64,000 bases of DNA from Parabacteroides sp. (GTDB taxonomy: Bacteria > Bacteroidota > Bacteroidia > Bacteroidales > Tannerellaceae): positions 103,683 through 167,682 of the forward strand of contig JAGBDR010000083.1 in NCBI GenBank assembly GCA_017937385.1. Reading direction: 5' to 3'. A model generated the notes under the pieces. That model saw only the letters and a program-made list of their open reading frames with translations. It was not told where the DNA came from and ran no database searches. The position numbers and the translations under genes are program-made. Positions within the stretch are counted from its first letter, which is position 1, and each line of letters starts with the position of its first letter. This document shows positions 5,526 to 29,482 of the stretch, one piece after another.

Positions 5526-8450
5526 TTAAAATGTAATGTCGATGCCGAAAGAAACGGTTCTGACCGGTACGTATCCGAAGTTGGTTCCTCCCGTGAAGTT
5601 ATATTGCGGGTCCATCCCTTTCAGATGATTGAATAAGACAAGGTTGTCTCCTGTAGCCGTGAAACGTATATGTTCAAGTTTCAGGGGTTGTGTCAGTTTG
5701 GAGGGCAATGTATATCCCAGTGTGATATTTTTGATGGCCAAATAGGAGGCATTGATCAAGTCATTGTCTGTGTAGATGTAACTTTTACCGATTTCGATAC
5801 GTGGAATGTCGGTTATGTCACCCGGTTGTGTCCAGGCCCGTTCCAAATGTTGGCTTCTTGCATTTCCAATATAATTGCCGTAAAGTAATGTGCGATAGAC
5901 ACCATCCAGCACCTTACCGCCGATCGAATAGGTACAAAGAATGCTTAGGTCGAAATCTTTATATTTGAATTCATTATTGAAAGAACCGTAAAGAGTTGGA
6001 ATACGGCTTCCTTGAATCTCTTTGCAAGCATTGGCTTTTGCTTGGTCGTTCGTGATATAGCGTTCACCGGCTACGCCGTTTTTATCCGTATCCCAGGCCC
6101 AATACAATTGTTCGCCTGTAGCCGGATCGACACCGGCCGAATTTGCCATATAGAAAGAGTTTAAAGTTTCACCTTCTTTGATGATGCGGGTCCCGGAAAT
6201 GATTTCGGGTTTGTCGGCCAGATGAAGCACTTTGTTTTTGATGGTTGATCCCATCAATGTCAATCGCCAGTTGAAGTTTTTTTCTTTGAGGATATCGGCC
6301 GAAGCGGTGATATCCCATCCAGTGTTACGCATACTCCCGATGTTCTTGTTATACCCGTCGAAACCTAAAGAGGTAGCCATCGGATATGACATCAGCATAT
6401 CGGAAGTTTTACGGCTGTACCATTCGATACCCAAAGAGATACGATCCCAAAAACGTCCTTCCAGGCCGACATTCAAATTCCCGTTCTTTTCCCATTTCAG
6501 GTCTCTGTTTTCGAGAGAAGATAGAACTGCGCCGCTCATGTTGGCGTTGGGGTAACCCAAATCATAGAATGATTGCCATAAATAATAATCGCTGTCCCCA
6601 TTTGAGTTCAGGATGTTGTCGTTACCTTGAATGCCGTAGCTGGCTTTAACAGACAAGTTATTGATCCAAGACAAATCTTTCATGAACTCCTCTTGGGAAA
6701 TACGCCAGTTTCCACCGACGGACCAGAAGTTTCCCCAACGGCTATCTTCGTGAAAGCGCGAGCTTCCATCGGTACGGAAGCTCGCAGACAAATAATATTT
6801 GTCTGCATAATTGTATTCCAAACGGGAAAGGATCGATTCCACTGCGTAATTGTGTTGATAGGAAGAGGCTTCCGTGATATTGGTGGCTGCATCCAGTTCA
6901 TACATTCCGCCAAAAGGGAAACCTGTTTTGGTCGCACTCAGAAACTGATAGTTATATTTGTAGAACTCATGGCCGACCAATGCGGAAATGCTGTGGTCAC
7001 CGAAAGAGCGGTGGTAGCTCAGCAGCTGGTTGAATGTGTAGCTGAAGGTACGTCCGGTTTCCTTGTCAAGATTTCCTTTTACAGACACGGAATTGCCATT
7101 ATACGGGTTGTAGTAAGTCATGCGGGCGGAGTTTACCAAATCGAAACCATAATTGACCGATAATTTCAGACCTTTCAAAGGACCTTCTTCCCAGTCGCCG
7201 AACTCTGCGAACAAGCGGCCACTTAGGTTATCACTTGCGGTGGAATATCTGTCATCGTACAAAGTTGCGATTGTGTTCCAGTTGGAATTGGCACCGGCCG
7301 GGCGATTGGCTCCGTAGTCGAAAACTTGATTGCCCTGTTCATCAATGACGGTTTGTCCGTTCGCATCTTTTTTAAATACCGGATAAATAGGGGCCATTAA
7401 CTGAGCCGTGTACCAGATATTGGAAGAACCGGAAGAGTTTTCGACAGCAGTGTTGCTTTCATTGCGTGAAAAGTTTGCGTTCATACCTGCGTTTAACCAG
7501 TTTGTGACTTTCGAGTCGATATTCATACGTCCGTTGATACGTTCAAAACCGGTAGTCTTCAACAATCCTTTTTCATCCAAATAACCCAAAGAGAACATAT
7601 AATTTGTTTTTTCATGTCCTCCTGTGAATGAAACGTTGTATTCTTGACGTAACGGATTGTGGGCCATAGCTTCATCCATCCAGTCCTCCGAATATTTAAG
7701 GACTGCATCTTTACGCACTTTTCCGGTTGACGGATCAATCAGTTCCGTAATGGAATAGTTGAATGGGTTGTATTGTTCGTTTTGTCCGAAAATGGCAGTC
7801 GAACCATTTTTCATATTGTTCAGGGCTGCTACGGACGCTGCGGAAGGATGCATGCCATTATTGTAGATCAAGTCATTCTTATAGGACTGGTAGACTGTTT
7901 CCAAAAAACTTCTTTCGTCCATCGTTTCATAGCGTGGGATAGAGCGGGATGCTACACCCCAGTTGGCTTTTAGGTTTACCTTGACTTTTCCTTTATCACC
8001 TTTTTTAGTAGTGATCATCACGACACCGTTGGCTCCACGTGCTCCATACAAGGCTCCGGCAGAAGCATCTTTCAAGATTGTCATGGATTCGATATCGCTT
8101 GGATTGATGGATACGATATTACCATCGTAGGGAACACCGTCTACTACATACAAAGGGTTCATGGATGCGTTGATTGAACCAAACCCACGTATAACGACCG
8201 ACACTCCTGAACCCGGCTGTCCCGATCCGGATGTCGTTTGTACACCGGCAACTTGTCCGTCCAGTGCTTTGGTAATGTTGGCAACAGGTCTTTTTCCAAT
8301 CTTTTCCGCTTTGATAACTTCTGCCGAACCGGTAAACGATTCTTTCTTCGCCGTTCCGTAAGCCACCACCATCACTTCGTCAAGCATCTGATTATCACTA
8401 TCTAACACGATATTCAAATTAGCCTTGACACCGACTTCCTGGGTCTTCAT
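5526..8450 (-). CDS. SusC-like TonB-dependent transporter, silent 5'-truncated allele A
   Basis: 974 residues from the first ATG, and the frame continues upstream through the shared site as SSAKTLVISFVG. It contains the plug (MLDEVMVVAYGTAKKESFTG, VVDGVPYDG, ILKDASAGALYGARGANGV) and the full SusC barrel ending in SFGIDITF. It lacks a signal peptide and the CarboxypepD_reg-like domain that unit C has, so as sequenced it cannot be exported. Joining it to the unit C leader at the 20-bp site gives a full-length protein of about 1051 residues in frame. This is read as a stored allele of an inversion system rather than a decayed gene, because the 970-codon frame is intact. Its first ~120 bp after the site are almost identical to allele D. 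Confidence 0.9.
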   Translation of the reverse strand: MKTQEVGVKANLNIVLDSDNQMLDEVMVVAYGTAKKESFTGSAEVIKAEKIGKRPVANITKALDGQVAGVQTTSGSGQPGSGVSVVIRGFGSINASMNPLYVVDGVPYDGNIVSINPSDIESMTILKDASAGALYGARGANGVVMITTKKGDKGKVKVNLKANWGVASRSIPRYETMDERSFLETVYQSYKNDLIYNNGMHPSAASVAALNNMKNGSTAIFGQNEQYNPFNYSITELIDPSTGKVRKDAVLKYSEDWMDEAMAHNPLRQEYNVSFTGGHEKTNYMFSLGYLDEKGLLKTTGFERINGRMNIDSKVTNWLNAGMNANFSRNESNTAVENSSGSSNIWYTAQLMAPIYPVFKKDANGQTVIDEQGNQVFDYGANRPAGANSNWNTIATLYDDRYSTASDNLSGRLFAEFGDWEEGPLKGLKLSVNYGFDLVNSARMTYYNPYNGNSVSVKGNLDKETGRTFSYTFNQLLSYHRSFGDHSISALVGHEFYKYNYQFLSATKTGFPFGGMYELDAATNITEASSYQHNYAVESILSRLEYNYADKYYLSASFRTDGSSRFHEDSRWGNFWSVGGNWRISQEEFMKDLSWINNLSVKASYGIQGNDNILNSNGDSDYYLWQSFYDLGYPNANMSGAVLSSLENRDLKWEKNGNLNVGLEGRFWDRISLGIEWYSRKTSDMLMSYPMATSLGFDGYNKNIGSMRNTGWDITASADILKEKNFNWRLTLMGSTIKNKVLHLADKPEIISGTRIIKEGETLNSFYMANSAGVDPATGEQLYWAWDTDKNGVAGERYITNDQAKANACKEIQGSRIPTLYGSFNNEFKYKDFDLSILCTYSIGGKVLDGVYRTLLYGNYIGNARSQHLERAWTQPGDITDIPRIEIGKSYIYTDNDLINASYLAIKNITLGYTLPSKLTQPLKLEHIRFTATGDNLVLFNHLKGMDPQYNFTGGTNFGYVPVRTVSFGIDITF

Positions 8451-8466
8451 ACCGACGAAAGAGATT

Positions 8467-8486
8467 ACCAGAGTCTTTGCGGAACT
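8467..8486 (-). repeat. SusC shufflon recombination site A (20-bp core)
   Basis: On the minus strand this reads AGTTCCGCAAAGACTCTGGT, identical in all four SusC units. It encodes SSAKTL in frame with the downstream gene. Homology to the complete SusC of unit C starts here and not before. Its role as the crossover site is inferred from this boundary. Confidence 0.8.
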
Positions 8487-8670
8487 TGCTTTGTGATATA
8501 TGTACTTGATTATTAATGAATAGTATTTCTACCAACACTCTAAAAGGGCATACAAATATGTTTAATGACTAAAACGGAAAATCGTTGTTTTTCAATGATT
8601 TGCTATTAATATGCAAAAAGAGACAGAAAAAAGAGCTGTTCTCTTTCTACCCAAAAGTATCTTGCATCAA
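8467..8670 (-). repeat. Long direct repeat, copy 1 (with 14951-15154)
   Basis: 204 bp that align without gaps to 14951-15154, with about ten mismatches counted by eye. The repeat starts at the SusC site core and runs through the noncoding stretch into the last codons (LMQDTFG) of the neighbouring ATPase gene. Both copies point the same way, so homologous recombination between them would delete about 6.5 kb. Confidence 0.85.
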
Positions 8671-9864: not shown

Positions 9865-9954
9865 TTTTATTTCTTATAGGGAATAAAACAAGACAAATAT
9901 AGGCGTTTTATTTCTTATAAGAAAAATAGTTGCAAAACAAAATCTTGTTTACAC

Positions 9955-10219
9955 AATAAAATTGCGGCAATCATGGATAGGAAGCCTTTCCGCACTTCAT
10001 TATTTGGAAAGTCCAATAGGTATACGTGCCGGTGTCAAGCACATCGAGAATCGGTTTGTCGTATTCGTCCACTAAGATTATGGCACGGCGTCCCATACGT
10101 TGATAAGCACGGCGCAGCACACCTTGAATAACGTAAATCTACTGTTTGTTCCGAATCGTCCTTTCCGTATCCGTCCTCGCGGATGCGTCGAAACTCTGTA
10201 TTCCGATGGGATATTTCAT
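9955..10219 (-). pseudogene. Remnant of an AAA-ATPase-like/PD-(D/E)XK family gene
   Basis: Starting at the ATG at 10217-10219, the minus strand gives MKYPIGIQSF, then a frameshift to RRIREDGYG. A different frame gives QGVLRRAYQRMGRRAIIL with VDEYDKPIL, and a third gives FPNNEVRKGFLSMIA. In intact members of the AAA-ATPase_like (DUF1703) family these blocks follow the same order in one frame. The Walker A region and most of the body are missing. The stretch is therefore a shrunken, frameshifted relic and explains most of the gap between the unit A ATPase and unit B. Confidence 0.75.
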
Positions 10220-10317
10220 AGGACTTGGAAACTTTTATGGATTGATACTACGGACAAAGCTACGATTTATTAGGAGAAAACAGAGAAAGGGGGTATAACA
10301 AATCGCTATCTGGAAAT

Positions 10318-10368
10318 AAAAAACTGGCTAATTGCGAAGTACCCTTCAAACTATTAGCCAGCTTTTTT
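10318..10368 (-). terminator. Terminator downstream of unit B susD
   Basis: Stem AAACTGGCTAAT / ATTAGCCAG with flanking A and T runs lies directly after the SusD-B stop. Read on the minus strand it ends in a run of T, as expected for an intrinsic terminator of this unit. Confidence 0.7.
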
Positions 10369-10380
10369 ATTATGGTTATT

Positions 10381-11976
10381 TTATTCTATATCAGGAACGG
10401 GAGAAGGAACAGGCACTGCTTCATTATTATCTTCGTTTGACAAAGCTGGATTTGCCTGGATTTCCTTTTCTGGAATACGCCACAACAAGATCGGATCGCC
10501 CGGTTGGATGTTGAATACGGAAGAAGCATTCGGATAACCGGCGCCACGACGGTCAACCCCCTTGTTCAGACGCATCACGTCGAACCAGTTCATACCTTCA
10601 CCCCAAAGTTCGATACGGCGCTGGCGGTAGATCTCTTCCTGCATGGCTTCGGGAGAAGAGGCTTTGCAAGTGTATTCCGGATCGCGGTAGTCACGCAAGA
10701 AAGATTCAAGCGTTGCTTTAGCACCCGTTACATTTCCGCTCATGGCTTCCCCTTCCGCTTTGATCAGGTACATCTCTTCAACACGCATCAAAGGAATGTC
10801 ACAGGCATTGGTGGAAGTTTCCAATTCATCATTATACGGGGCAAACTTCACCTGCGTATAAGGACCGAAATAATATTCAACCAATTCTTTCTCTTCCTCA
10901 TTCAAGTTCGGAGAGGCCACGTCTTCATTTAACCACCATCCCTTACGGACATCCGTTTCCGGAATCGATTTATATAATTCCTTGTTGATCTGACGGCCAC
11001 CACTGTACCAAGCATAACCATAGTTCAAGGAACCCATGTGGGACGGGAAATTACAGATACCCGTTGTCACCACACGATCGGATTCAGCAATCAGAATACC
11101 CCACATCCAAGCATTGTCCGTAGAAGTGTCGAAAGCCGGTCTTTTCAATTCGTTGATCGTGTAAGGAGTCGCAGAAGTGTTGTTGATTGCGTTTTCTGCA
11201 TCTTTAGCTGCATCGGACCAGTTTCCCATTGTTAAATTGATACGGGCACGCAGACCGTAAGCAACCGCGAAGTCGATATAACGTTTGTCTCTTCTCTTGA
11301 TCGTCGAGTTTTCCAAAAAGCCGATCGCCTTGTTGATGTCGTTCATAATCTGCATATAAACTTCTTCAACCGTTGAACGCGTACAACCTTCTGTCGAGAC
11401 TGTCGCAGCATTCTGTTCCGTAATGATCGGGACGCAAGGTGAGGATTTGTGGCTCGTGTAGTTGAACTGATAATTTTGAGCCAATACCCAATAGTTGAAG
11501 GCACGTGTTGCCAAAGCTTGTGCCAAATAGAATTGTAACGTCGGATCATCCGGATTTTCTCCCACCGATGTAACCACATTGTTGGCGGCATAGATCTGAT
11601 TATACATGACTCCCCACATCATACGGCATTCATAAGCCGTAAAAATACGGTCATCGAAAGTTAAACTGTTACCCATCCAGTTATAACCGTTATCATCGCT
11701 GACGAAATCCGCGCCATTGCTATCCATAAACAACATCAAGCCCGGATAGCCGATATCATTATGCCGTTCTGACTCTGTAATGATGGAAGCATAAGAACTG
11801 AATTGCGTAAAGACGGCATTAACCCCAGCCTCCGCTTTAGACGGATCATTTTCCGCCACTTCTTCTTTTTGATCAGATGTAATAATTTTATCTTCAGGGA
11901 ATGTGTCCAAATCCACACAACTGTTCAGTGTCAATGCAGAAAAAGCACAAGCTGATACTATATATTTAGTCTTCAT
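10381..11976 (-). CDS. SusD/RagB-family nutrient-binding lipoprotein, unit B
   Basis: 531 residues with a lipoprotein signal peptide (FSALTLNSCVDLD) and the typical opening LDTFPEDKIITSDQ. SusD landmarks are ALATRAFNYWVLAQNYQFNY, the LMRVEEMYLIKAEGEAM helix and the RRIELWGEGMNWFDVMRLNKG block near the C-terminus. The gene lies 27 bp downstream of SusC-B and is the only other gene in the unit; there is no third lipoprotein as in A and D. It is expected to be expressed only when SusC-B is joined to the promoter. The ligand is unknown. Confidence 0.9.
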   Translation of the reverse strand: MKTKYIVSACAFSALTLNSCVDLDTFPEDKIITSDQKEEVAENDPSKAEAGVNAVFTQFSSYASIITESERHNDIGYPGLMLFMDSNGADFVSDDNGYNWMGNSLTFDDRIFTAYECRMMWGVMYNQIYAANNVVTSVGENPDDPTLQFYLAQALATRAFNYWVLAQNYQFNYTSHKSSPCVPIITEQNAATVSTEGCTRSTVEEVYMQIMNDINKAIGFLENSTIKRRDKRYIDFAVAYGLRARINLTMGNWSDAAKDAENAINNTSATPYTINELKRPAFDTSTDNAWMWGILIAESDRVVTTGICNFPSHMGSLNYGYAWYSGGRQINKELYKSIPETDVRKGWWLNEDVASPNLNEEEKELVEYYFGPYTQVKFAPYNDELETSTNACDIPLMRVEEMYLIKAEGEAMSGNVTGAKATLESFLRDYRDPEYTCKASSPEAMQEEIYRQRRIELWGEGMNWFDVMRLNKGVDRRGAGYPNASSVFNIQPGDPILLWRIPEKEIQANPALSNEDNNEAVPVPSPVPDIE

Positions 11977-12003
11977 ATATTTATATCTTTATTCGTTTTT
12001 TTA

Positions 12004-14934
12004 TTAGAATGTAACGCTGATACCACCGGAAACCGTGCGGATCGGAGTATAAAGTGCCGTTGTTGCACTGGTATAGCTCTGACGCGGGTCAAGACCTTTA
12101 CGGGCAGAGAGCAAAGCCACATTGTCAGCAGCAAAATAAACACGCAATCGGTCTACCAGGAATTTGTTTGTCAGCACTTTCGGAAGCGTATAACCGATTG
12201 TGATGTTGTTCAAAGAAAGATAGTTTGAACTTGTCAGCCAACGGTCAGACTGAGAACTTGCATATTTATCTTCTGCGTTCAGACGCGGAACATCTGTATT
12301 GCGATTGTTTTCCGTCCAAGCATTATAGATATCCTTGTGCCAGTTCGTTCCGGCATAGCTGGAGTTACCACCATGCATGAAACGTGCATAACCGGAGTCA
12401 TAGATCTGTCCTCCCAATTGATAAGACAACTGGATGGAAGCATCAAAACCGTACAGGTTCAAAGAAGTGCCGAAACCACCATAAACTGTCGGCAATAAAT
12501 CGTCTGTTGCTTCTTTATAGTTGGATGCCAAAGAATAGTCAGCAGTCTTGATTGCATTGCCTTCCTTGTCTTTTGCCCAATACATGGCTGTACCGGTTTC
12601 AGGATCGACACCTGCATATTTAACCAAATACATGCGGTACATGGATTCGCCTTCCGTATAAATACGTGAACTGTTGATCAATTCGCCTTCCAAGTCCGGA
12701 TGCAGTTCGATAATCTTATTCTTGATGAACGAAGCGTTCAAATTCACATCCCAAGTGATGTTCTTGTTTTTGATGATCGCATAGTTCAAATCCAATTCCA
12801 AACCGGAGTTACGCATGGAACCCACGTTCATCGGGATTTCCTGATAACCGGCTGTCGGACCCACCGGTTTGTAGTACAACATATCACCGGATTGACGCAA
12901 AAAGTACTCAATGCTACCGTTAAAGCGGCTGTTAAACATACTGAAATCGAAACCGGTATTGAAAGAGGTCGATGTTTCCCAAGTCAAGTCCGGATTCCCT
13001 TTGTAGTACAATGAGCCATCCGAGAAGATTCCGTTTGCACCGGTCATCTTGAACTGGTCGATATAGGCATAATAGTTACCGATCATATCGTTACCCTGTT
13101 GTCCGAAAGAAGCTTTGAATTTCAATAAGTCAATCCATTTTGCATCTTCAAGGAAACTTTCATTTGACAAAATCCAGGCGGCACTTGCAGACCAGAAGTT
13201 ACCCCAGCGGTGATCCGGATGGAAACGGGACGAACCGTCGCGACGGAAAGAAACACTTCCATAATAAGTATTCTTATAGTCATAGTTTACACGGCCTATA
13301 TAACCTTCTGTTGCATAAGAATTCCCATAGCCGTAACCGATCAACTGGTCAATCGCGTTGTTTACGTGGAAATTTTCCGGATTATACAAATTCTGTCCGG
13401 AAGCCTCTACCACTTCTTCGCTCCATTTGTAACCGTCATAACCGATCATCACATCCAAGTTATGGTCTTCATTGAATGTTTTCCGGTATGTGGCGATATA
13501 TTGTTGGTCAAATCCCCACTTACGGGAATGCCCTTGATAAGCCGTACCGCCATAAGATGCGCTCTGTCCGGAATATACGTTTCCTAACAGGTTGTAACGC
13601 TGGCTGTCCAGGTTCATACCGTAACGGGCTGAAATCGTCAGTCCTTCAATCGGGGTGAAATCCGCATACCAATTCGCGTTTACAATATCATGTAAATATT
13701 CATCCTTGTTGTAAATCAAGTCTCCGGCAGGATTGGAGATAGACATGAACGAACGAGAAAATTTGGTGCTGACGCCATCACCATAGTCATACACTTTACG
13801 TCCGCGGTTCATCATCAAAGAGCCGTCCGCATTACGCACATACAACGGATAGATCGGAGCAATCATGTTTGCCATCAAAAAGGCGTTACCGGAAGAAGCT
13901 GTGGAAGTCTGTTCGCCCGGATAACGGCTGTTTGAATAAGTATAACCCAAGTTAGCACCGACTTTCAACCATTTTTTTACCTGGTAGTCACCTTTTGCAC
14001 GTGTTGAATAACGGGTGAAACCTGAACCTTCGATTATACCCTGGTCATCCAAATAACCGAAAGAAACATAATAGTTTGCTTTATCGGAAGAACCGGAAAC
14101 ATTCAAGTTATATTCTTGACGGGACTTATTGCTGAAGATTTCATCTGCCCAATTGTCCGGTGTATAATAATAGTTACCATCCGAATAACCTAATTTGGCG
14201 TTCGGGTTCATTTTGCCGTCCAATCCATACAAAGATTCACCTTCCGGGAGCGTATAGATCTGGTACCCCAGACCCCCCTTACTCTTAACCGGCAAATAAG
14301 AATTTGCATATTGATTTGATTTCGCATCATCGTAACCCAATGTATATTTACCTGCATTATACAGAGCTTGATAAGCGTGGTCCATATAATCCACTACATC
14401 CGTCATTACATCGTAGTTCTTGATCATTCGGGAGTTTACGCCCCATTTGGCATCAAAGTTGATGGCCGCTTTACCGCTTGTACCTTTTTTTGTTGTAATC
14501 ATGATCACACCGTTCGCACCACGTGCGCCATACAAAGCTGTAGAAGCAGCATCCTTCAAAACCGTCAGCGATTCGATATCCTGTGAATTGATGGAAGAGA
14601 TGTCTCCATCATAAGGAATACCGTCCACTACATACAACGGATCAGAACTTGCATTGATAGAACCGACACCCCGGATCTTTACCTTTGCCGAAGTACCCGG
14701 CTGCCCGTTTGAACTTTGAATCTGCACACCAGCAACGGCACCCGCCAAAGCATTCGTCACATCCGATACTTGACGTTTTTCAATTTGTTCAGTCTTCACA
14801 ACTCCAGCCGATCCAGTGAATGCACCTTTCTTAGCCGTACCATAAGCCACAACAACAACCTCGTCAAGCATTTTGTTGTCAACCTCCAAAATCACGTTCA
14901 TTTTGGGTTTGATAGCCAACTCTTGGGTCTTCAT
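12004..14934 (-). CDS. SusC-like TonB-dependent transporter, silent 5'-truncated allele B
   Basis: 976 residues from the first ATG; upstream the frame continues through SSAKTLVVYFVG at the shared site. Plug motifs (MLDEVVVVAYGTAKKGAFTG, VVDGIPYDGD, TALYGARGANGVIMITTKKG) and the complete barrel with terminal aromatic residue (SGGISVTF) are present. No signal peptide and no N-terminal carboxypeptidase-like domain are encoded. Its first ~130 bp are almost identical to the complete unit C gene (one difference seen) and then diverge fully. A fusion to the unit C leader would give about 1053 residues. The intact frame argues for a reserve allele. Confidence 0.9.
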   Translation of the reverse strand: MKTQELAIKPKMNVILEVDNKMLDEVVVVAYGTAKKGAFTGSAGVVKTEQIEKRQVSDVTNALAGAVAGVQIQSSNGQPGTSAKVKIRGVGSINASSDPLYVVDGIPYDGDISSINSQDIESLTVLKDAASTALYGARGANGVIMITTKKGTSGKAAINFDAKWGVNSRMIKNYDVMTDVVDYMDHAYQALYNAGKYTLGYDDAKSNQYANSYLPVKSKGGLGYQIYTLPEGESLYGLDGKMNPNAKLGYSDGNYYYTPDNWADEIFSNKSRQEYNLNVSGSSDKANYYVSFGYLDDQGIIEGSGFTRYSTRAKGDYQVKKWLKVGANLGYTYSNSRYPGEQTSTASSGNAFLMANMIAPIYPLYVRNADGSLMMNRGRKVYDYGDGVSTKFSRSFMSISNPAGDLIYNKDEYLHDIVNANWYADFTPIEGLTISARYGMNLDSQRYNLLGNVYSGQSASYGGTAYQGHSRKWGFDQQYIATYRKTFNEDHNLDVMIGYDGYKWSEEVVEASGQNLYNPENFHVNNAIDQLIGYGYGNSYATEGYIGRVNYDYKNTYYGSVSFRRDGSSRFHPDHRWGNFWSASAAWILSNESFLEDAKWIDLLKFKASFGQQGNDMIGNYYAYIDQFKMTGANGIFSDGSLYYKGNPDLTWETSTSFNTGFDFSMFNSRFNGSIEYFLRQSGDMLYYKPVGPTAGYQEIPMNVGSMRNSGLELDLNYAIIKNKNITWDVNLNASFIKNKIIELHPDLEGELINSSRIYTEGESMYRMYLVKYAGVDPETGTAMYWAKDKEGNAIKTADYSLASNYKEATDDLLPTVYGGFGTSLNLYGFDASIQLSYQLGGQIYDSGYARFMHGGNSSYAGTNWHKDIYNAWTENNRNTDVPRLNAEDKYASSQSDRWLTSSNYLSLNNITIGYTLPKVLTNKFLVDRLRVYFAADNVALLSARKGLDPRQSYTSATTALYTPIRTVSGGISVTF

Positions 14935-14950
14935 CCCGACAAAATAAACG

Positions 14951-14970
14951 ACCAGAGTCTTTGCGGAACT
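14951..14970 (-). repeat. SusC shufflon recombination site B (20-bp core)
   Basis: Minus strand AGTTCCGCAAAGACTCTGGT, the same 20 bp as at sites A, C and D and in the same reading frame. It has the same orientation as A and C, so in the present arrangement it can invert only with site D. Confidence 0.8.
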
Positions 14971-15154
14971 TGCTTTGTGATATATATGCTTGATTATTAA
15001 TGAATAGTATTTCTACCAACACTCTAAAAGGGCATACAAATATGTTTGATGACTAAAACAGCAAATCGTTGTTTTTCAATGATTTGCTATTAATATGCAA
15101 AAAGAGACAGAAAAAATATTTGTTCTTTTTCTACTCAAAAGTATCTTGCATCAA
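14951..15154 (-). repeat. Long direct repeat, copy 2, ending in an ATPase gene tail
   Basis: Ungapped partner of 8467-8670. Its distal end still encodes LMQDTFE and a stop, the C-terminus of the DUF4143 ATPase found intact next to unit A, but the rest of that gene is absent. The sequence then continues with CAAAATC...TTTACACAA, which next to unit A lies on the far side of the ATPase gene. Confidence 0.85.
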
Positions 15155-15194
15155 CAAAATCCTATTTACACAACAAAATTACGGCAACCGCACA

Positions 15195-15266: not shown

Positions 15267-15280
15267 TTGTGTGATGACTA

Positions 15281-21300: not shown

Positions 21301-21501
21301 GGAACTTGGTACATCCAGAGAAAATGCACCGTTAAAATCTGTTACCACACCTGTAGTCGTACCTTTAACAACTACAGATGCACCAATGATGGGCTCGTTG
21401 TCCTCCGCCGAAATAACAGTACCTGTTACTTTCGTCGTCTGAGCATTGGCCATCCCGATACCTAATAATAGGCAGAATAAAAGGAAAGTTAACCTTTTCA
21501 T
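18307..21501 (-). CDS. SusC-like TonB-dependent transporter, complete allele C at the expression position
   Basis: 1064 residues from the ATG at 21499-21501; a GTG two codons upstream is possible but less likely, as MKRLTFLLFCLLLGIG is a good signal peptide. After cleavage near ANAQ comes a CarboxypepD_reg-like domain (about 24-100: VTGTVISAEDNEPIIGASVV), then the plug (MLDEVVVVAYGTAKKESLTG, VVDGVPFDG, SALYGNRAANGVV) and the 22-strand-type barrel ending in LGLTVNF. It transports an unknown nutrient with SusD-C in a TonB-dependent way. A promoter lies about 90 bp upstream. Codons 66-71 (SSAKTL) are the 20-bp shuffling site, so everything downstream of this point can be exchanged. Confidence 0.92.
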   Translation of the reverse strand: MKRLTFLLFCLLLGIGMANAQTTKVTGTVISAEDNEPIIGASVVVKGTTTGVVTDFNGAFSLDVPSSAKTLVVYFVGMKTQELAIKPKMNVILEVDNKMLDEVVVVAYGTAKKESLTGSVSVVDSKKIEKRLTTSVTGALEGSAPGVQVNNTYGEPGAAPSIRIRGFGSLVSGATDPLYVVDGVPFDGNIAELNSNDIESMSILKDAASSALYGNRAANGVVLITTKRGRGNSDKPSVTLQINQGIYNRGIAEYDRLSANDWMEMSWKAKKYAMMSNKGMSAEEAGAYATSKLISESIGRNIFDAANDKLFDANGKLIANMLPGYDDLDWQDAIERNGHRQEYNLSGSKAGEKYNTYASVGYLNEKGYVKTTSFERYSARVNTTFTPNKWFKSGLNLNGSSTKRNYNSNANGNYYSNPFYIARYMAPIYPLYMHNADGSYALDENGNKVYDVTSPYLSNRNIVYEMQYDKQLSTRNVLGGQAFATVSLPYGLSVTAKGDINFSTTNNQKYDNPLIGDGATNNGRLTSYAYQYKTATFQQFINWNYTFNEHHNVEAMVGHESYSWIRKYTSGMNTGMAVDGNLTMGNFLNNSYFNGSDDEDKLESYLARVKYNFDERYFVEGSFRRDGSSRFYKDNRWGNFFSLGASWNMKKEAFLENVDWVDQLKMRASYGEVGNNMGVSWYAHMALYTIDKNAGNPALVKQSLKAPDIKWETTQTVDVAFEGRLFDRLNFQLGYFDKRSKDLLFEVRLPLSAGSYPWQDNMMNLSQYKNIGTISNRGVEISLNADVFRNKDWNWNIGVDATFLKNKIVKLPDGKDILHGMQNYSEGHSIYEFYTYHYEGVDQLTGTTLYTLDPEKKAAAEESGALTTINGVDYATATSYAKRDWAGSALPTVYGSINSALSWKNWNLNLLFTYSLGGKTYDGSYASLMGVSESGASGSAYHKDILNSWDGAPAGMTETSANRIDPNGTPRADFHKSSDLNAQSDRWLTSASYLVFKNLNLSYSLPKRWLNNLGVEGLSLNAGIENLFTLTSRKGLNPQYSFNGGSDDTYVTARVYNLGLTVNF
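21287..21306 (-). repeat. SusC shufflon recombination site C (inside the expressed gene)
   Basis: Minus strand AGTTCCGCAAAGACTCTGGT within the expressed gene, encoding SSAKTL. It is inverted relative to site D at 22807-22826. Inversion between the two would flip about 1.5 kb carrying promoter, signal peptide and N-terminal domain. Confidence 0.85.
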
Positions 21502-21593
21502 AGACACACTTTTTTTGTTAAACTTATAATAACTAATTTACACTATCTGTTTTTTACACTTAAAAGCAATGCATAAAGATTCCTAAGAGGCGA

Positions 21594-21623
21594 CAAATGT
21601 AACAATAAATTTATTATAACAAC
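21594..21623 (-). promoter_or_regulatory. Promoter of the SusC expression locus
   Basis: On the minus strand GTTG, an 18-bp spacer and TACATTTG match the Bacteroidales consensus TTG-N19-21-TAnnTTTG closely. The predicted start of transcription is near 21587, giving a leader of roughly 85 nt before the ATG at 21501. It lies inside the invertible segment, so it would travel with the signal peptide. Confidence 0.7.
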
Positions 21624-22088
21624 TAAAATCTTATCCGATTTTTCAAAAAAGAGGATGATTATTAACAAAAGAATAAGTAAAACTGATATTTTCGCTTGTT
21701 TTTGCTCAAAGAAACTTCATTTTGGGCTACTTCAAATTTTTCCTATTTTTAACTTCGAGGTAACGATCTGTTTTTCCCCCTTTTCAAAAAGGAGAAAAGC
21801 ACTTCGGGTTTATATGGGTAGAAAATCATCATATTTCGTCAATGCAAACTTCAAAAGTCTTCTAAAAAGAAAAGTGCGATGCATTTGCAAGTGCAATGGG
21901 ACATCCGGAGTATCTCAATTTTAGATTTAGATATCCCAAAGATAGTTCCAGAACATAACTCTTCAAACAGGCCTTATTGTACATTTTTACTTCTTTAGTA
22001 AGAATATACAGTTTTTGCAAATAACGAAAAAATCCGCTTCTTATTGACGAAAAAAGGAAAAACTGCCGTGAAGTGCTTCGTTTTTTAC

Positions 22089-22195
22089 CATGAAGTCCGT
22101 CTTCATTACCTATGAAGTCCGAGTTCATATACCACGATGACCGTCCTCATGGCAACGAAGACGGTCCTCATGACGATGAAGACGGTCGTCGCCGC
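22089..22195. repeat. Intergenic array of five 21-22 bp units
   Basis: Units such as ATGAAGTCCGTCTTCATTAC and ACGAAGACGGTCCTCATGAC repeat with a period of 21-22 bp and drift gradually. Each unit is partly self-complementary (GAAG...CTTC or GAAGACGGTCGTC). The array lies in the noncoding part of the invertible segment. There are no unique spacers, so this is not a CRISPR array. Confidence 0.7.
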
Positions 22196-22806
22196 GAAAA
22201 AACAGTAATTTCCTTTTTGAATATTCGAAATCTCATTCGTATGTATTTGCTACAAGCGATTCTCCGAGGGTTTAACTTTTTCACTATGTCAGGATTTTCA
22301 GCTTTTCACTGATAAAAAAGTTGCTTTTTCCAATTTCCTGCCGTTCTTATTTTACCGAAAGTTCATCTATACCCGTTTAAAGGAGAAAAAAGTCAGACAT
22401 TGTTTGTTCAAAATTTTATCCAAAATAGAAAAACACCCAAATAGGGGATATTGTCACTTTTAACAATTTGCTTTTTAATAAAAAACGAACGATTTCCTAC
22501 GAACTCTAAAACATAAGATAAGCCATCGCAAAACATAGTTTGAGTACACACAAATCAGAGCTTTCTTTGGCATCAAACATACTCCTTTGCCTGAATCACA
22601 AAAAAAAACCGGACCACAAAAGAAAAAACAGGTACCATTATCAACTTTCCCTATAAACCAAATGGAACAAATAGATAAAGCAACCGATTAATATGCAAAT
22701 TCTTGCATTTAGTCTATAAAAAGCAAAAACGATCTTCATTTTCTCCCCAAAAGTATTATATATCCATATAAGATACTGTGAATAAATGTATTAAAGATAG
22801 AAACGC

Positions 22807-22826
22807 AGTTCCGCAAAGACTCTGGT
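22807..22826 (+). repeat. SusC shufflon recombination site D
   Basis: Plus strand AGTTCCGCAAAGACTCTGGT, the only one of the four copies in this orientation. A stop codon (TAG at 22798-22800) precedes it in frame, so unit D has no leader of its own. Downstream the frame reads SSAKTLVISFVG and runs into SusC-D. Confidence 0.85.
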
Positions 22827-22842
22827 AATCTCTTTCGTCGGT

Positions 22843-25740
22843 ATGAAAACCCAGGAAGTCGGTGTCAAGGCTAATTTGAATATCGTGTTAGATAGTGATA
22901 ATCAGATGCTTGACGAAGTGATGGTGGTGGCTTACGGAACGGCGAAGAAGTCATCGTTTACCGGAGCTGCTTCTACTGTAAAGGGGGAAAAGATCCAGAA
23001 GATGCAGGTGTCTGACATCTCCAAGTCTTTGGAAGGTTCTATTGCTGGTGTGCAGACATCATCTTCCAGTGGTACTCCGGGTTCTTCATCTTCAATCATC
23101 ATCCGTGGTTTGGGGTCTATCTCTTCCAGTCAGGAACCGTTGATTGTTGTGGACGGTGTGCCTTACGAAGGCTCCCTGAATTCTATTTCAACGCAGGACA
23201 TCGAGTCTTTGACTGTTTTGAAAGATGCGGCTGCGAACTCTATGTACGGTGCGCGTGGTTCGAATGGTGTCATCATCATTACGACTAAGGGCAGCAAATC
23301 CGGAAAAGCAAAGATTAATTTCGAAGCCCGTTATGGTTTCAACGCGCGTGGCGTGGGTAACTATGACATCATCTCGGATGCAGGAGAATATTATGAAATG
23401 ATGTATGAGGCCATACGCAACAGCTTGGTTTCGGATATGGGACAGGCCGGTGCAAATTTATACGCTTCTCAACACCTGATCGACGGCTACTTGAAATATA
23501 ATAAATTCAAAGGTGTCGCCGACAATGCGTTGATCGACCCGTTGACCGGAAAACTGAACCCGGCAGCCAAAGCATACAAGTGGAATGACAATTGGGCAGA
23601 AGACCCGTTTGAAAACGGTTCGCGTCAGGAATATAACATCAATATCTCCGGTGGTACGGAGCAGACACAGGCGTATGCATCGTTGGGCTATCTGAAAGAT
23701 GAAGGTTATATGGTCGGATCCGGATTTGACCGTATCTCAGCCCGTGTGAAAGTGGACCAGATGATCGGGAAATACTTCAAAGTCGGTGGAAACATCGCGT
23801 ATGCCAATACCGAGATGTCTAAGTTCGGAGATACGAACAGCAACTATTCGAACATTTTTATGTTCTCGCAGAATATCGGTCCGATCTATCCTATATATAT
23901 GTATGACAAAGAGGGGAATTTGATGTACGACGAAAAAGGGAACGTGCGTTATGATTTCAATAGCCCGTATGCCGCACCTCAGAATCCGCTGGCTGTTGCC
24001 AAAGAGAACATCAACAAGACAACAAAAGACAATCTTAGCTCACGTGGTTATATCGAAGCCCGGTTTTTGGATCATTTCAAATTCTCTTTGAATATCGCGT
24101 ATGACGTCTTCAATACGCATCAGACTAATTTTGCGACTCCAATCGGTGGGGATGCCGAAAATGTCGGAGGACGTGGATATAAGTATGCTACACGATATGG
24201 CGCGTTGAACGTTAACCAGTTGTTGAACTGGAACCGTTCGTTTGGTAATCATAACGTATCGGTCTTGTTAGGTCATGAAACCAAAAACGACCACTATAAT
24301 TATTTGTACGGTCACATGACCAATTTCGCTGATCCTTCGAACCCCGAATTCAGCAATGCCGCACAGTATCAAGGTTTGAGCAGCTATACCTCCGAATATG
24401 CTTTGGAAGGTTATTTCGTGAAAGGCGAATATAATTATGCCGACCGCTATTATTTCACGGCAAGTTATCGTCGTGACGGTTCTTCCAAGTTCCACAAAGA
24501 CAACCGTTGGGGTAGCTTCTGGGCTGTCGGTGGATCCTGGCGTTTGAAAGAGGAAGCATTCCTGAAAGATGTGGACTGGTTGAACAATCTGAAATTGAAA
24601 GCAAGTTTCGGTACGCAGGGTAATGATAATATCTTGGATTCGAACGGTTATACAATCTGGAAGGCTTATTCCGATTTATATGGTGTGGACCGCGTGGATG
24701 GCGATGCCGCTTTTAGTAAGATCTTGCGTGGTAATCCTGATTTGACTTGGGAAAAGAGTAATAACTTCAACGTGGGGGTAGAAGTGGGAGCTTTGGATCG
24801 TATCACGTTCAACGCCGATTTCTTCATCAAAGAAACAAAAGACATGCTTTATGCCAGCCCGTTGGCTTCTTCTGAAGGTAGTCCGTCCTACATCTATCGC
24901 AATGAAATGGATATGAAAAACACCGGCGTCGAATTTGAATTGTCTGCCGATGTGATTAAAAACAATCGCTTCAAATGGAATGTATCTTTGAATGCTACTC
25001 ACTACAAAAACAAATTGACCAAGTTGCCTGCGTCTAAACCTGCGGATGAGTTCCCTGATGGTTACCAGGCCGGTTCATATTGGAGAAAGATAGGCGGTTC
25101 GTTGTACGACTGGTACACGTATGAATATGTAGGTGTCGATCCTGAAAACGGGAAACCGATGTATAATAAGTATGTGAAAGATGAAAACGGCAATGAAACC
25201 ATTGAGATCGTAAACCGTACATCGGATGCATCCTTGCGCCAGACAGGCAAATCGGCTATTCCGAAGTTGACAGGCGGTCTCTCTACTACGTTCGACGCTT
25301 TCGGTTTCGACTTGGGCATCCAGACGGCTTTCCAGTTGGGCGGCTATGTTTGGGATAGCTTCTATACAAGTTTGATGAACTCCGGGAGCCGCGGTCAGAA
25401 TATGCACAAGGATATGTTCAACCGTTGGACTCCGACCCATACGAACACGAATATTCCGGCATTGGGATATGACTTGCAGGATCAGTCGGCTGGCGGTGAT
25501 TTCGCTTTGATCAAAGCCTCTTATTTCAGCATCCGTAACCTGACTTTGGGGTATACATTGCCTTCCGCTTGGATGAAAAAGGCGAATATCGAAAAACTTC
25601 GCGTTTATTTGACGGGTGACAATATCTGGTTGAAATCAAAACGCAAAGGTTTGGATCCGCGTCAGAGCTTCTCCGGTAGCACGGGTTATGCCTACTCTGC
25701 ATTGAGTACATATTCCATCGGTTTGAATTTGACTTTCTAA
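22843..25740 (+). CDS. SusC-like TonB-dependent transporter, silent 5'-truncated allele D
   Basis: 965 residues from the first ATG, with the frame open upstream only to the shuffling site and a stop just before it. Plug motifs (MLDEVMVVAYGTAKKSSFTG, VVDGVPYEG, NSMYGARGSNGVIIITTKG) and the intact barrel ending in SIGLNLTF are present. There is no signal peptide or N-terminal domain. A flip of the 1.5-kb leader segment would create a protein of about 1042 residues in frame. The first ~120 bp match allele A with one difference seen, then diverge. It heads a three-gene unit with susD and a lipoprotein, followed by the recombinase gene. Confidence 0.9.
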   Translation: MKTQEVGVKANLNIVLDSDNQMLDEVMVVAYGTAKKSSFTGAASTVKGEKIQKMQVSDISKSLEGSIAGVQTSSSSGTPGSSSSIIIRGLGSISSSQEPLIVVDGVPYEGSLNSISTQDIESLTVLKDAAANSMYGARGSNGVIIITTKGSKSGKAKINFEARYGFNARGVGNYDIISDAGEYYEMMYEAIRNSLVSDMGQAGANLYASQHLIDGYLKYNKFKGVADNALIDPLTGKLNPAAKAYKWNDNWAEDPFENGSRQEYNINISGGTEQTQAYASLGYLKDEGYMVGSGFDRISARVKVDQMIGKYFKVGGNIAYANTEMSKFGDTNSNYSNIFMFSQNIGPIYPIYMYDKEGNLMYDEKGNVRYDFNSPYAAPQNPLAVAKENINKTTKDNLSSRGYIEARFLDHFKFSLNIAYDVFNTHQTNFATPIGGDAENVGGRGYKYATRYGALNVNQLLNWNRSFGNHNVSVLLGHETKNDHYNYLYGHMTNFADPSNPEFSNAAQYQGLSSYTSEYALEGYFVKGEYNYADRYYFTASYRRDGSSKFHKDNRWGSFWAVGGSWRLKEEAFLKDVDWLNNLKLKASFGTQGNDNILDSNGYTIWKAYSDLYGVDRVDGDAAFSKILRGNPDLTWEKSNNFNVGVEVGALDRITFNADFFIKETKDMLYASPLASSEGSPSYIYRNEMDMKNTGVEFELSADVIKNNRFKWNVSLNATHYKNKLTKLPASKPADEFPDGYQAGSYWRKIGGSLYDWYTYEYVGVDPENGKPMYNKYVKDENGNETIEIVNRTSDASLRQTGKSAIPKLTGGLSTTFDAFGFDLGIQTAFQLGGYVWDSFYTSLMNSGSRGQNMHKDMFNRWTPTHTNTNIPALGYDLQDQSAGGDFALIKASYFSIRNLTLGYTLPSAWMKKANIEKLRVYLTGDNIWLKSKRKGLDPRQSFSGSTGYAYSALSTYSIGLNLTF

Positions 25741-25771
25741 AAAAATTGATAACGAATTAATAACGAATAAT

Positions 25772-27268
25772 ATGAAATTTCTAAAATATATAGCAGCAGG
25801 TATGGTCGCAATAGCAGGATTGGCGTCTTGCAGCGATTCATTTCTCGATACGGAGTACACGGAGTACTTGGATGAAGAGTCGGCTGGTGAAGCAGCCGGC
25901 AAGAATCCGGATGTGTTCTTGAACGGTATGTGGTCGTGGATGGTTACTTACGGCCAGGGCAGCAGCAACCATGATGATTTCGGTTATATGTGTTCACTCC
26001 ATGCGACCGACATGATGGGGCAGGATATTTGTATGGGGGCTTCCCACTGGTTCAACTATGACTATCAGTTGGATAACCGTATGTTCAACTACCGTCGTAC
26101 ATTGGCTCATTGGATCAACTATTACACCATGATCGCCAAGGCAAACGAAGTGATCAGTTTGTATCCGGAAGGGGGAGAAACCGTAGACCAGAAAGGGCTG
26201 TTGGGACAGGCAAAGGCCATCCGCGGTCTGGCTTATCTGCACTTGATCCAATTATACCAGTTTCCGACCGATGCTTCCGGCAATATCAATGCAACGGCTC
26301 CGGGCGTGCCTTTGATGTACACGGCTGCCGATGGCAAAACGGAAGAAGAGATTGCAGCAGCCAAAGGACGTAACACCGTGGCTGATATCTTGGCACAGAT
26401 TGAGAAAGACTTGGAAGAGGCCGTTCAGAATCTGGAAGCCGGCTATACTCGTCCGAGCAAGAATTATATCGATGCAAGCGTGGCCAATGGTATCCTGGCC
26501 CGTTATTATTTGTTGAGCCAACAATGGGAAAAAGCGGCAGCGGCTGCCAATAAAGCACGTTCCGGCTATACGCTGATGGATGCAAACGAATCAGGCTTGT
26601 ATGATGGTTTTGTTACGGTGAACAATGTGGAATGGATGTGGGGTTTTGCCCATACGACAGAAACACAGACAACGTATGCCTCTTTCTTCTCCATGATTTC
26701 AAACTTGGCCCCGGGATATGCCGGTATGGGCTTGGCTCCCCGTTTGGTTGATGCGAAACTGTATAGCCAGATTCCGGATACGGACGCCCGTAAGAAATGG
26801 TTCAACGGCCCGGATGGCGACAAGTCGCAACCGACTGAAGCCGCCCAGTTGCCATACGCGAATGTTAAATTCGGACACTTGAGCGACTGGACAGACAACT
26901 ATATGTATATGCGTGCTTCCGAAATGGTTTTGATCGAAGCGGAAGCGTATGCCCATCTGAACCAGGGAGCGAAAGCAGCCGAAGTGCTGAAAGTGCTGAT
27001 GAGCAAACGCCAGCCGGATTGGAACAAGGCTTCCGTGACGGTAGAGGACGTTTATTTGCAGCGCCGTATCGAGTTGTGGGGCGAAGGTTTTGCCTTCTAT
27101 GACCTGAAACGTCTGAACAAGGGCATCGACCGTAATTATGAAGGCAGCAACCACTTGCCGGGTTATAAATTAGTGGTCGAACCGCAGGATGTCAGATGGA
27201 CGTATCAGCTTCCTCAAAGAGAGTTACAGGAAAACAAGCTGATCAGTGAGGATGAACAGAATCCGTAA
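25772..27268 (+). CDS. SusD/RagB-family nutrient-binding lipoprotein, unit D
   Basis: 498 residues with lipobox GLASCSDS (Cys20) followed by FLDTEYTEYLDEESAGEAA. SusD landmarks are KAIRGLAYLHLIQLYQF, YMRASEMVLIEAEAYAHL and RRIELWGEGFAFYDLKRLNKG. It lies 31 bp after SusC-D and 40 bp before the unit's lipoprotein gene, so the three should be co-transcribed when a promoter is supplied. Codon use is richer in G and C than in units A-C, judging by eye, which may point to a different origin of this unit. The ligand is unknown. Confidence 0.9.
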   Translation: MKFLKYIAAGMVAIAGLASCSDSFLDTEYTEYLDEESAGEAAGKNPDVFLNGMWSWMVTYGQGSSNHDDFGYMCSLHATDMMGQDICMGASHWFNYDYQLDNRMFNYRRTLAHWINYYTMIAKANEVISLYPEGGETVDQKGLLGQAKAIRGLAYLHLIQLYQFPTDASGNINATAPGVPLMYTAADGKTEEEIAAAKGRNTVADILAQIEKDLEEAVQNLEAGYTRPSKNYIDASVANGILARYYLLSQQWEKAAAAANKARSGYTLMDANESGLYDGFVTVNNVEWMWGFAHTTETQTTYASFFSMISNLAPGYAGMGLAPRLVDAKLYSQIPDTDARKKWFNGPDGDKSQPTEAAQLPYANVKFGHLSDWTDNYMYMRASEMVLIEAEAYAHLNQGAKAAEVLKVLMSKRQPDWNKASVTVEDVYLQRRIELWGEGFAFYDLKRLNKGIDRNYEGSNHLPGYKLVVEPQDVRWTYQLPQRELQENKLISEDEQNP

Positions 27269-27308
27269 TGTGAAATTCTCTGGATATAAATTTAAAGGAT
27301 AAAAGAAG

Positions 27309-28148
27309 ATGAAAAATATAGTTAGAATTTTTGTTTCTTGTTTGGCTTTGGCTACGGGCTTATCCGGTTGTTATGATGAGATGGATGACAAGGCGGTCGT
27401 TGATGCCAAATATGAGAATGCGAATAAACCGACGGTAACACTTTCAAACGTAAAGGTTATAGATTTCTCTAATGTAGAAGTAAGCGGCTCTGTCAGCACA
27501 ATTGAAAATATCCTTGAATCGGGATTCATGTATGCGGTTGACGAATCTTTCAATAATGCGGTTTGTGTGGCAAATGAGGAGATAACGGAAAGCTTCAATG
27601 CGACTTTGTCCGGTTTGTCGGAGAACACGACTTATTATATTCGTAGTTATGCCGTGACAGCAGGAGCGGGAATAGCAGTCAGCGAACATCAGGCGGTTAC
27701 GACTCCTGAAGCACCGATATTTACGGCTGGAGTATTGGATGGAAAACGCTATACGGCGAATGTGACAAGTTATTTTGATAAGGCTTCGGCGTTTGACTTT
27801 ACATTGTCGCTTGATCCGGAAGATCCGAATAAGATCTGGTTTAATAACCTGTCTAATTACTTCTTCACAAACGGAGTTACAGCCGAAAAAGGTTGCAATA
27901 AGTTTTATGGAATGTTGGATGTTGAATCAATGACTATCACGATTCCTCAGGAACAGCCGATGGGTTACAATTCCGTAGTGCTTTTAGGATTCAGTGATGC
28001 GGATCCTGATGCAGCAGAGGACTATTCCGATGTAACGGTTTCGATTGTTAACTTTGGAAGCCAGTTGGTATTCAAGAACGCTTTCGGGTTTTATGAAGGT
28101 GGTTTTTATGAATTGTTCTACGGCGATTTGACTGTTTCAAGCAAGTAA
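27309..28148 (+). CDS. Surface lipoprotein of SusC/SusD unit D, FN3-like domain
   Basis: 279 residues; lipobox GLSGCYDE (Cys21). Residues ~40-135 look like a fibronectin type III or DUF1735-like beta-sandwich (VTLSNVKVIDFSNVEVSGSV, then LSGLSENTTYYIRSYAVT). The second half (GKRYTANVTSYFDKASAFDF onward) is unassigned. It holds the same position relative to susD as the lipoprotein of unit A but shows no clear sequence match. It may be an accessory ligand-binding protein of the transporter; that role is inferred from position only. A strong terminator follows. Confidence 0.7.
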   Translation: MKNIVRIFVSCLALATGLSGCYDEMDDKAVVDAKYENANKPTVTLSNVKVIDFSNVEVSGSVSTIENILESGFMYAVDESFNNAVCVANEEITESFNATLSGLSENTTYYIRSYAVTAGAGIAVSEHQAVTTPEAPIFTAGVLDGKRYTANVTSYFDKASAFDFTLSLDPEDPNKIWFNNLSNYFFTNGVTAEKGCNKFYGMLDVESMTITIPQEQPMGYNSVVLLGFSDADPDAAEDYSDVTVSIVNFGSQLVFKNAFGFYEGGFYELFYGDLTVSSK

Positions 28149-28165
28149 TAATAAGAGTGCTTAAT

Positions 28166-28206
28166 AAAAGGCTGTCCGTAATAAATTTGCGAGACAGCCT
28201 TTTTTA
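28166..28206 (+). terminator. Terminator between unit D and the recombinase gene
   Basis: AAAAGGCTGTC and GACAGCCTTTTTT form an 11-bp stem with a terminal T run, just after the unit D lipoprotein. It should insulate the recombinase gene from read-through. Confidence 0.85.
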
Positions 28207-28312
28207 TAGCTGATAAACCAGCCGTTTTTTTTGTATTTGTTCCTTCCTGGAATAATCTTGCATGGATAGATTGTTGTTTCTTCGTGCTTTTGTTTTAGAA
28301 ATAAAGTATATC

Positions 28313-29482
28313 ATGAAAAAGGTTATTTACAATTTGGTATTCAATCGGAAGAAGCGGTTGAATGCGGAGGGAAAAGCGTTGATTCAGGTAGAGGCTTACC
28401 TGAATAGGCAAAAGAGGTATTTCTCAACGAAAATCTATGTTAAACCAACGCAGTGGGATAACAAGAGGAAGGCCGTGAAGAATCATCCAAACATGGATGA
28501 ACTCAACCGCTACATTAAGGATTATGTCACTTATTTGGAGCGGATTGAGTTGGACATTCTTCAGAGCGGACGTCCGTTTTCCTTGCGGTATTTGAGAGAA
28601 AGGGGGGATTTTGAGTCAGACTCTTCATCGTTTGTCTCCTTTATGAAAGAGGAAATTGAACATAGTAATTTGAGACTTTCCACATTGAAAAACCACTTGT
28701 CAACTTTGCAGATCTTGTGCCAATATCGTCCCCAAATCTCTTTTGACGATCTTACCTTTAATTTCCTTTGCGGTTTTGAACATTTTCTTCTTGAGCAAAA
28801 GTATCATCGGAATACGGTTGCCAAACACATGAAGCATCTGAAACGATATGTCAACCTGGCAATAAATAAAGATCTGTTCGAATTGCAGAAATATCCTTTC
28901 CGCAAGTATAAGATCAAATATATGGAGAGCAAGCGTGGCCATCTGACACCGGAAGAATTGGGGAAGTTGGAGAGCGTCGCTCCCAAATTGCAGCGGACGC
29001 TCAAACGGACGCTCGATATGTTTCTTTTCAGTTGCTATACCGGGCTTCGTTTTTCCGATATTGTCAGCATACGGCCGGATAATTTCCACTTGATCGATGA
29101 TAAGCTATGGCTGATCTATTCGTCGGTTAAGACAGACGTGAGCGTCCGGCTTCCTCTCTTCCTGCTGTTCGACGGGAAAGCCCTCGCGGTCTATGAACGC
29201 TATTGCAAGCGTTATTCAAGGACCCTGTTCGGTGTCTCTGTCTCGGCAAACTCAAATGTGAATAAACAGTTGAAAAGGATTTGCCTACTGGCGGAAATAG
29301 ACAAGAAACTCTCTTTCCACATGGCCCGCCATACCAATGCTACCTTATTATTATATAACGGGGCGAGTATCACGACTGTCCAGAAACTCTTGGGGCATAA
29401 AAGCGTGCGGACAACGGAAATCTATGGTGATATTATGGATATGACCGTTTTGCGTGATCTGGAAAATATCACGCTGAAATAA
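28313..29482 (+). CDS. Tyrosine recombinase, probable SusC shufflon invertase
   Basis: 389 residues starting at MKKVIYNLVFNRKKRLN; an ATG 51 bp upstream is possible but adds residues unlike the family. Residues 1-85 form the arm-binding domain, ~105-200 the SAM-like core-binding domain, ~205-389 the catalytic domain. All catalytic residues are visible: Arg246 (CYTGLRFSD), Lys273 (SSVKTD), His336 and Arg339 (HMARH), His362 (LLGHKS) and Tyr371 (TEIYGD). Tyrosine recombinases placed beside SusC/SusD paralogues are known to invert them in Bacteroides fragilis. Here the gene closes unit D of a four-allele locus with identical 20-bp sites, so the same role is inferred. No integrative-element genes or att sites are nearby. 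Confidence 0.85.
   Translation: MKKVIYNLVFNRKKRLNAEGKALIQVEAYLNRQKRYFSTKIYVKPTQWDNKRKAVKNHPNMDELNRYIKDYVTYLERIELDILQSGRPFSLRYLRERGDFESDSSSFVSFMKEEIEHSNLRLSTLKNHLSTLQILCQYRPQISFDDLTFNFLCGFEHFLLEQKYHRNTVAKHMKHLKRYVNLAINKDLFELQKYPFRKYKIKYMESKRGHLTPEELGKLESVAPKLQRTLKRTLDMFLFSCYTGLRFSDIVSIRPDNFHLIDDKLWLIYSSVKTDVSVRLPLFLLFDGKALAVYERYCKRYSRTLFGVSVSANSNVNKQLKRICLLAEIDKKLSFHMARHTNATLLLYNGASITTVQKLLGHKSVRTTEIYGDIMDMTVLRDLENITLK

Follow-up and report, generated by a model that had tools for sequence, protein, structure and literature searches.

A probable SusC/SusD shufflon of the Bacteroides fragilis kind in a Parabacteroides genome

In Bacteroides fragilis, inversions of the shufflon type are driven by the tyrosine recombinase Tsr0667; they affect three SusC/SusD clusters and a further nine regions, according to the excerpts of the source (PMC4747536). 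For the B. fragilis region EE, the passages of a second source describe inversions which place alternative ragA/susC genes behind an invertible promoter (PMC5729914). Inversions have also been reported in P. distasonis, in passages without the word SusC (PMC5903667). A literature search combining Parabacteroides with SusC inversion, invertible or tyrosine recombinase, shufflon or inverton returned no title naming the locus described here. This locus lies in a stretch of 64,000 nucleotides of Parabacteroides sp. (contig JAGBDR010000083.1, positions 103,683 to 167,682), in the following called the window, and comprises four SusC/SusD units (A to D) and a gene for a tyrosine recombinase. Very probably it represents a SusC/SusD shufflon like those of B. 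fragilis. The assignment is carried by the anatomy of the locus, the constraint on a shared site at the DNA level, the single leader per resolved locus and the alternative states of sister genomes, which break at the site.

The 20-bp sequence AGTTCCGCAAAGACTCTGGT was found in four exact copies in the window. Three are located on the - strand (site A, 8467..8486; site B, 14951..14970; site C, 21287..21306) and one on the + strand (site D, 22807..22826), the latter being the inverted partner of site C at a distance of 1.5 kb. No further copy with up to three mismatches was found in the window, nor any in 100 shuffled windows, and the 15-bp core of the site is present exactly at only these four places in the 3.73-Mb assembly (90.5% complete). 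All four SusC genes read SSAKTLV over the site in identical codon phase, and their frames stay open from the site onward for 986 (A), 988 (B), 999 (C), and 977 (D) codons.

The SusC gene of unit C (18307..21501, -) is complete and would occupy the expressed position in the assembled state. Its frame extends upstream of the site to MKRLTFLLFCLLLGIGMANAQ, giving a leader (21307..21501, -) which codes for a signal peptide and most of a CarbopepD_reg_2 domain. The SusC genes A (5526..8486, -), B (12004..14970, -), and D (22807..25740, +) are leaderless: 14, 14, and 2 open codons, respectively, precede the site, a signal peptide is missing, and the ORFs from the first ATG past the site comprise 974, 976, and 965 amino acids. 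Upstream of the leader a promoter-like motif TTG-N18-TAnnTTTG (21594..21622, -) was identified, which corresponds to the Bacteroides promoter consensus. Among the four units, this motif, the signal peptide and the CarbopepD domain are found in unit C only. The initial annotation of this DNA had described the identical 20-bp sequence, the common codon phase, the complete gene C and the genes A, B, and D of 965-976 codons beginning at the site without a signal peptide, and all of this was recovered here.

Each SusC gene is followed by its own SusD gene (A, 3963..5504, -; B, 10381..11976, -; C, 16639..18291, -; D, 25772..27268, +). Units A and D each contain a third ORF (3151..3948, - and 27309..28148, +), which begins with a lipobox-like sequence as judged by eye and has no match in Pfam. 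SusD A and the third ORF of unit A fall beyond the range 5526..29482 first assigned to the locus. A domain scan detected a TonB plug in all four SusC bodies, whose pairwise identity is 35-41% and whose nearest solved structures are SusC homologs and RagA. The tyrosine recombinase gene (28262..29482, +), with the domains Arm-DNA-bind_5, SAM_5, and Phage_integrase, codes for the presumed invertase.

The single promoter and leader lie on the 1.5-kb segment between the inverted sites C and D (21287..22826), which is the putative invertible segment. The neighboring recombinase would recombine the sites, and the shared codon phase would enable each inversion to attach another SusC body to the leader in frame, putting the SusD of the chosen unit, and for A and D also the third, lipoprotein-like ORF, under the one promoter. 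In the fused protein the N-terminal domain would stay constant, and TonB-box region, plug, barrel and lid would be exchanged. C would be on in the arrangement as assembled; a flip of the 1.5-kb C-D segment would turn promoter and leader to D, and larger inversions between oppositely oriented sites could then bring A or B to the leader. A label model permitting inversion only reaches 12 arrangements, D after one inversion and A and B after two. From the junctions C-D, D-A, and D-B proposed initially, C-D is thus retained as a one-step switch, whereas A and B need two inversions. Site pairs in the same direction could delete units, which may lie behind the varying allele number between loci. We infer that the neighboring recombinase acts at the sites, that inversion takes place in this strain and that nutrient uptake or recognition by phages or antibodies is altered by it.

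The spread of the site was analyzed in 38 Parabacteroides genomes including the own one, which are referred to by number (G000 being the assembly of the window). The site was found with up to two mismatches in 13 of them, a control pattern in none. Exactly one leader-linked site is present in 10 of these 13 genomes, window included, and in all 10 resolved loci it is a member of the closest inverted pair, so that the plan of the window recurs in each. Leader linkage was not resolved in G001, where three of four sites lie at contig ends, in G006, with a single site and a frame of 26 codons, and in G037, which has single N bases at the leader pieces. Leader-like DNA is present in all three, with 68% identity in G001, 76% in G006 on a contig other than that of the site, and 80% and 74% in G037. 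In G014 the inverted site which pairs with the leader-linked one (L090, 7624) is followed by no more than a SusC stub (54 codons), and an OFF state would therefore result when the leader faces this stub. The promoter-like motif, as TTG-N(18-23)-TAnnTTTG, is located 5′ of 18 of the 21 leaders examined and is missing in G028, G025, and G091. The exact 20-mer was not found in the genome_contigs and viral_contigs records, collections that may leave out the genome of the window and those very close to it. A degenerate form of the site matched 60 stretches, where by our arithmetic about 7.5 are expected by chance; seven of the 60, in records named for groups other than Bacteroidota, were taken as background in view of this expectation.

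Of the 12 other Parabacteroides locus sets fetched, 8 contain an ortholog of the recombinase with 70-91% identity. In all nine Parabacteroides loci which have it, the window included, the gene lies outside the closest inverted pair. To follow the recombinase beyond the genus, 12 genomes picked for having the site, most of them Bacteroidaceae by name, were searched, giving a match with E <1e-110 in 11 and with 2.6e-45 in the remaining one. In the genus group of G040 (B. muris), 73 of 119 genomes have a match at 1e-70 or better, which is the single match in 71 of the 73. Fifteen Bacteroidaceae loci were then considered, G038 from the 12 site-bearing genomes and 14 from the 73 match genomes, mostly with long contigs preferred. 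One resolved leader is present in 12 of the 15, 11 by motif and G120 by eye (SSANTL). The recombinase is located inside the inverted pair in all 11 fetched loci with a resolved pair, and the same holds, by coordinates, for another five genomes (G040, G041, G042, G047, and G048); in G129 one site only was found. In the 12 fetched Bacteroidaceae loci with a leader it is oriented away from the leader. The recombinase at the end of the locus, as initially described, is therefore a property of the Parabacteroides loci where the gene was found (9 of 9) and not of the Bacteroidaceae, where it sits in the flipping segment. The largest array seen here is that of P. vulgatus ATCC 8482 (Phocaeicola; L147-L148), with six identical sites over ~25 kb, one leader and six SusC bodies.

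These data bear on the possibility that the inversions are real and carried out by another recombinase of the genome, the neighboring gene not being the invertase. The window's own genome contains 13 matches to the recombinase, and none was found near the sites in four of the 12 other Parabacteroides locus sets (G028, G025, G006, and the second G037 stretch, some of them short or cut). The ortholog is nevertheless found with the site in nine Parabacteroides loci, and in every resolved fetched Bacteroidaceae locus it is flanked by the inverted sites, which makes another recombinase improbable.

The terminator-like hairpin between unit D and the recombinase (28166..28205, +) consists of a perfect 11-bp stem with a 16-nt loop and is followed by a T run. 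Since it separates the two, recombinase expression is probably independent of the switch state. With the recombinase 3′ of unit D in the same direction, transcription from the leader promoter could in the D state continue into it; such read-through was considered and is less likely because of this hairpin. A standard terminator scan, limited to loops of up to 8 nt and thus omitting this hairpin, gave 3 terminator-like sites vs 1.5 expected. Hairpins of uneven quality occur between unit and recombinase in 7 of 8 other loci, with a scanned stretch of >2 kb in G014, and none was found in G004.

Alternative states were identified by comparing sister genomes, as the initial annotation had proposed. 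G012 and G015 share alleles in opposite states. One shared allele (96.8% identity) is silent in G012 and leader-linked in G015, and a second one (96.1% identity) is leader-linked in G012 and silent in G015. In two of the three DNA alignments of shared alleles, the similarity breaks at the upstream edge of the site (G012 9270 / G015 15142 and G012 20979 / G015 8052); the third, of an allele silent in both, extends 37 bp beyond this edge. The alignment table reads as if the blocks between the flanks were inverted and re-ordered, which therefore requires more than one inversion. The fourth allele of G012 has no full counterpart in the fetched stretch of G015. Furthermore, allele A of the window is silent and its 81% relative in G025 is leader-linked, and allele states likewise differ between G004 and G009 (91.7% identity). 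Six contig ends coincide exactly with a site, three in G001, two in G042, and one in G040, where the last 55 bases of the leader contig equal the first 55 of an allele contig. Such ends suggest, indirectly, that the cultures contained more than one kind of junction. The alternative states and the breakpoints are best explained, as first proposed, by a shufflon with one expression position.

General homologous recombination or gene conversion between SusC paralogues, instead of a site-specific process, could in principle also produce such exchanges, and the DNA around the site is indeed shared in pairs, A and D having 257 nt in common at 82% and B and C ~200 nt at 89%. The four-way identity is, however, restricted to the 20 bp, and the breakpoints in the sister genomes lie at the edge of the site. 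In a comparison of 68 sites (24 fetched loci), identity within genomes amounts to 0.97 for the site itself and to 0.34-0.41 for the 60 bp upstream, the similarity thus stopping at the site, and downstream it declines from 0.87 to 0.52. Homologous recombination is accordingly considered even less probable than another recombinase.

The site is constrained at the DNA level. Between the window alleles, same-residue codons are identical in 36 of 36 cases in the site vs 134 of 231 in the next 54 codons, and because of this difference protein constraint alone is insufficient to account for the 20-bp identity. Within genomes, the corresponding counts are 440/462 in the site, 303/418 in codons 7-12 and 1219/2283 in codons 13-60, and between genomes 8785/12941 in the site. 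The 18 nt compared per site (66 sites) show on average 0.36 mismatches within a locus set vs 1.65 after shuffling the labels within the family, a shuffle in which relatedness remains and which reached so low a value in 0 of 2000 runs. Wobble bases of the site which vary between genomes are mostly concordant inside one genome, an agreement consistent with repeated exchange through the site. That the 20-mer merely reflects protein conservation among non-recombining SusC paralogues is largely contradicted and hardly credible, as the residues SSAKTL are conserved among the alleles but their codons agree within genomes far more than those of codons 13-60, the leaderless copies start at the site, and it is also the point of rearrangement in sister genomes.

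Several observations weigh against a shufflon operated by the neighboring recombinase. No switching was seen in the organism of the window, for which one assembly and no reads were at hand. The recombinase was not found near the sites in the four Parabacteroides locus sets named above, 46 of the 119 genomes of the B. muris group have no strong match to it, and several of the 73 matches contain stops. Three of the 15 Bacteroidaceae loci have no resolved leader, since that of G156 leaves the frame and none was found in the 20 kb fetched from G152 and G077. Close copies of the site elsewhere in the own genome, with up to two mismatches in the core, number 20 vs 15 for the control, four of the 20 being the sites themselves. 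This is no clear excess and gives no clear sign of a genome-wide action of the recombinase as in B. fragilis, a trait not regarded here as defining for the type.

Further elements were found in the window. Two ATPase-like genes lie between the units (8647-9864 and 15281-16426), one with AAA_14/DUF4143 domains and the other below the Pfam cut-offs; the DNA from each of them to site A or B is alike in both, which suggests duplicated units. A perfect 20-bp inverted repeat, CCTTATTTATGAAATAAGGT, is located at 48445-48464 and 48851-48870 and encloses 386 bp. It adjoins a second tyrosine recombinase (48884-49822, -), a fimbrillin/Mfa-like cluster lies downstream on the - strand, and the repeat pair looks like an invertible promoter for fimbriae. 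The region 34491-36505 contains a PDDEXK_2 nuclease-family transposase gene, assigned by a domain scan of this first copy, and an adjoining copy with a DNA likeness of 73-79%; an identical 44-bp stretch adjoins each. Finally, similar AT-rich inverted repeats of GATTTATGATTTATGA-like units are present at 32024-32169 and 51032-51146.

A close counterpart outside the genus was identified in genome G128, which is probably that of B. fragilis NCTC 9343. Its locus comprises four sites AGTTCTGCAAAGACTTTGCA, one leader, four alleles and a recombinase with 52.7% identity to that of the window. The sites of both loci agree at 14 of the 15 core positions and at 16 of all 20. Searched against the window's genome, the G128 recombinase has its best match in the window's recombinase (5.7e-140), followed by 7e-33 (ten of the 13 matches considered), and we infer that it is Tsr0667. 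The reverse complement of the site core fits AGTYYYN4GDACT, the motif of Tsr0667, which adds to this assignment. With close counterparts of site and recombinase in this genome and in many other Bacteroidales, the initial view of a locus with its own sites had to be given up.

The comparison somewhat favors one ancestral receptor-expression shufflon kept across two Bacteroidales families. Its orthologous recombinase (usually one per genome), its SSAKTL-embedded site and its well-conserved promoter-leader would have persisted, with receptor bodies, SusDs and allele number (about two to six) turning over and, in Parabacteroides, the recombinase placed outside the flipping segment on a fixed flank. 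If so, the fixed flank would free recombinase expression from the switch state, and the locus would have to be seen as a permanent receptor-exchange site, not as a collection of local shufflons without relation to each other. The data suggest a conserved system shared by Bacteroides, Phocaeicola, and Parabacteroides, to which the B. fragilis SusC/SusD shufflon belongs as one example. As leader and site are so constant, switching could be counted per species in public reads and metagenomes. SusC-like proteins are described, in excerpts of the source, as abundant surface receptors and T-cell antigens (PMC10939037), and the system is therefore of relevance for diet and for recognition by phage and host in widespread gut bacteria.

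The R64 pilV shufflon has a constant N-terminal part, alternative C-terminal parts, the recombinase Rci and several asymmetric sfx sites. It is considered here as an analogue only; in the window promoter and leader would move on the invertible segment and whole operons would be exchanged. A mention of the R64 system is found in excerpts of one source (PMC11852207). The nutrient-receptor shufflons of B. thetaiotaomicron, again by description in excerpts, also involve phase-variable receptor exchange (PMC12548429). Region EE of B. fragilis is alike in the inverted repeats over the ragA/susC 5′ end, the alternative pairs and the one invertible promoter, as described in the passages of the source (PMC5729914). 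The SusC/SusD shufflons of Tsr0667, in the excerpted account, likewise combine several SusC/SusD units, multiple inversions and a tyrosine recombinase (PMC4747536). In the window, repeats of both orientations cover the SusC 5′ part of several SusC/SusD pairs, a single promoter-like motif and gene start could face alternative units, and an orthologous tyrosine recombinase and the same recombination site are present. The window differs in that its recombinase lies outside the inverted pair, whereas that of G128 lies inside, and shows no clear sign of distant sites, whereas 12 regions are reported for Tsr0667 in the excerpts (PMC4747536). Judged from sequence comparison, the system appears to be real, an additional case of the known SusC/SusD shufflon type and a relative of the B. 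fragilis system, with a consistent layout difference in recombinase position and a spread wider than first supposed.

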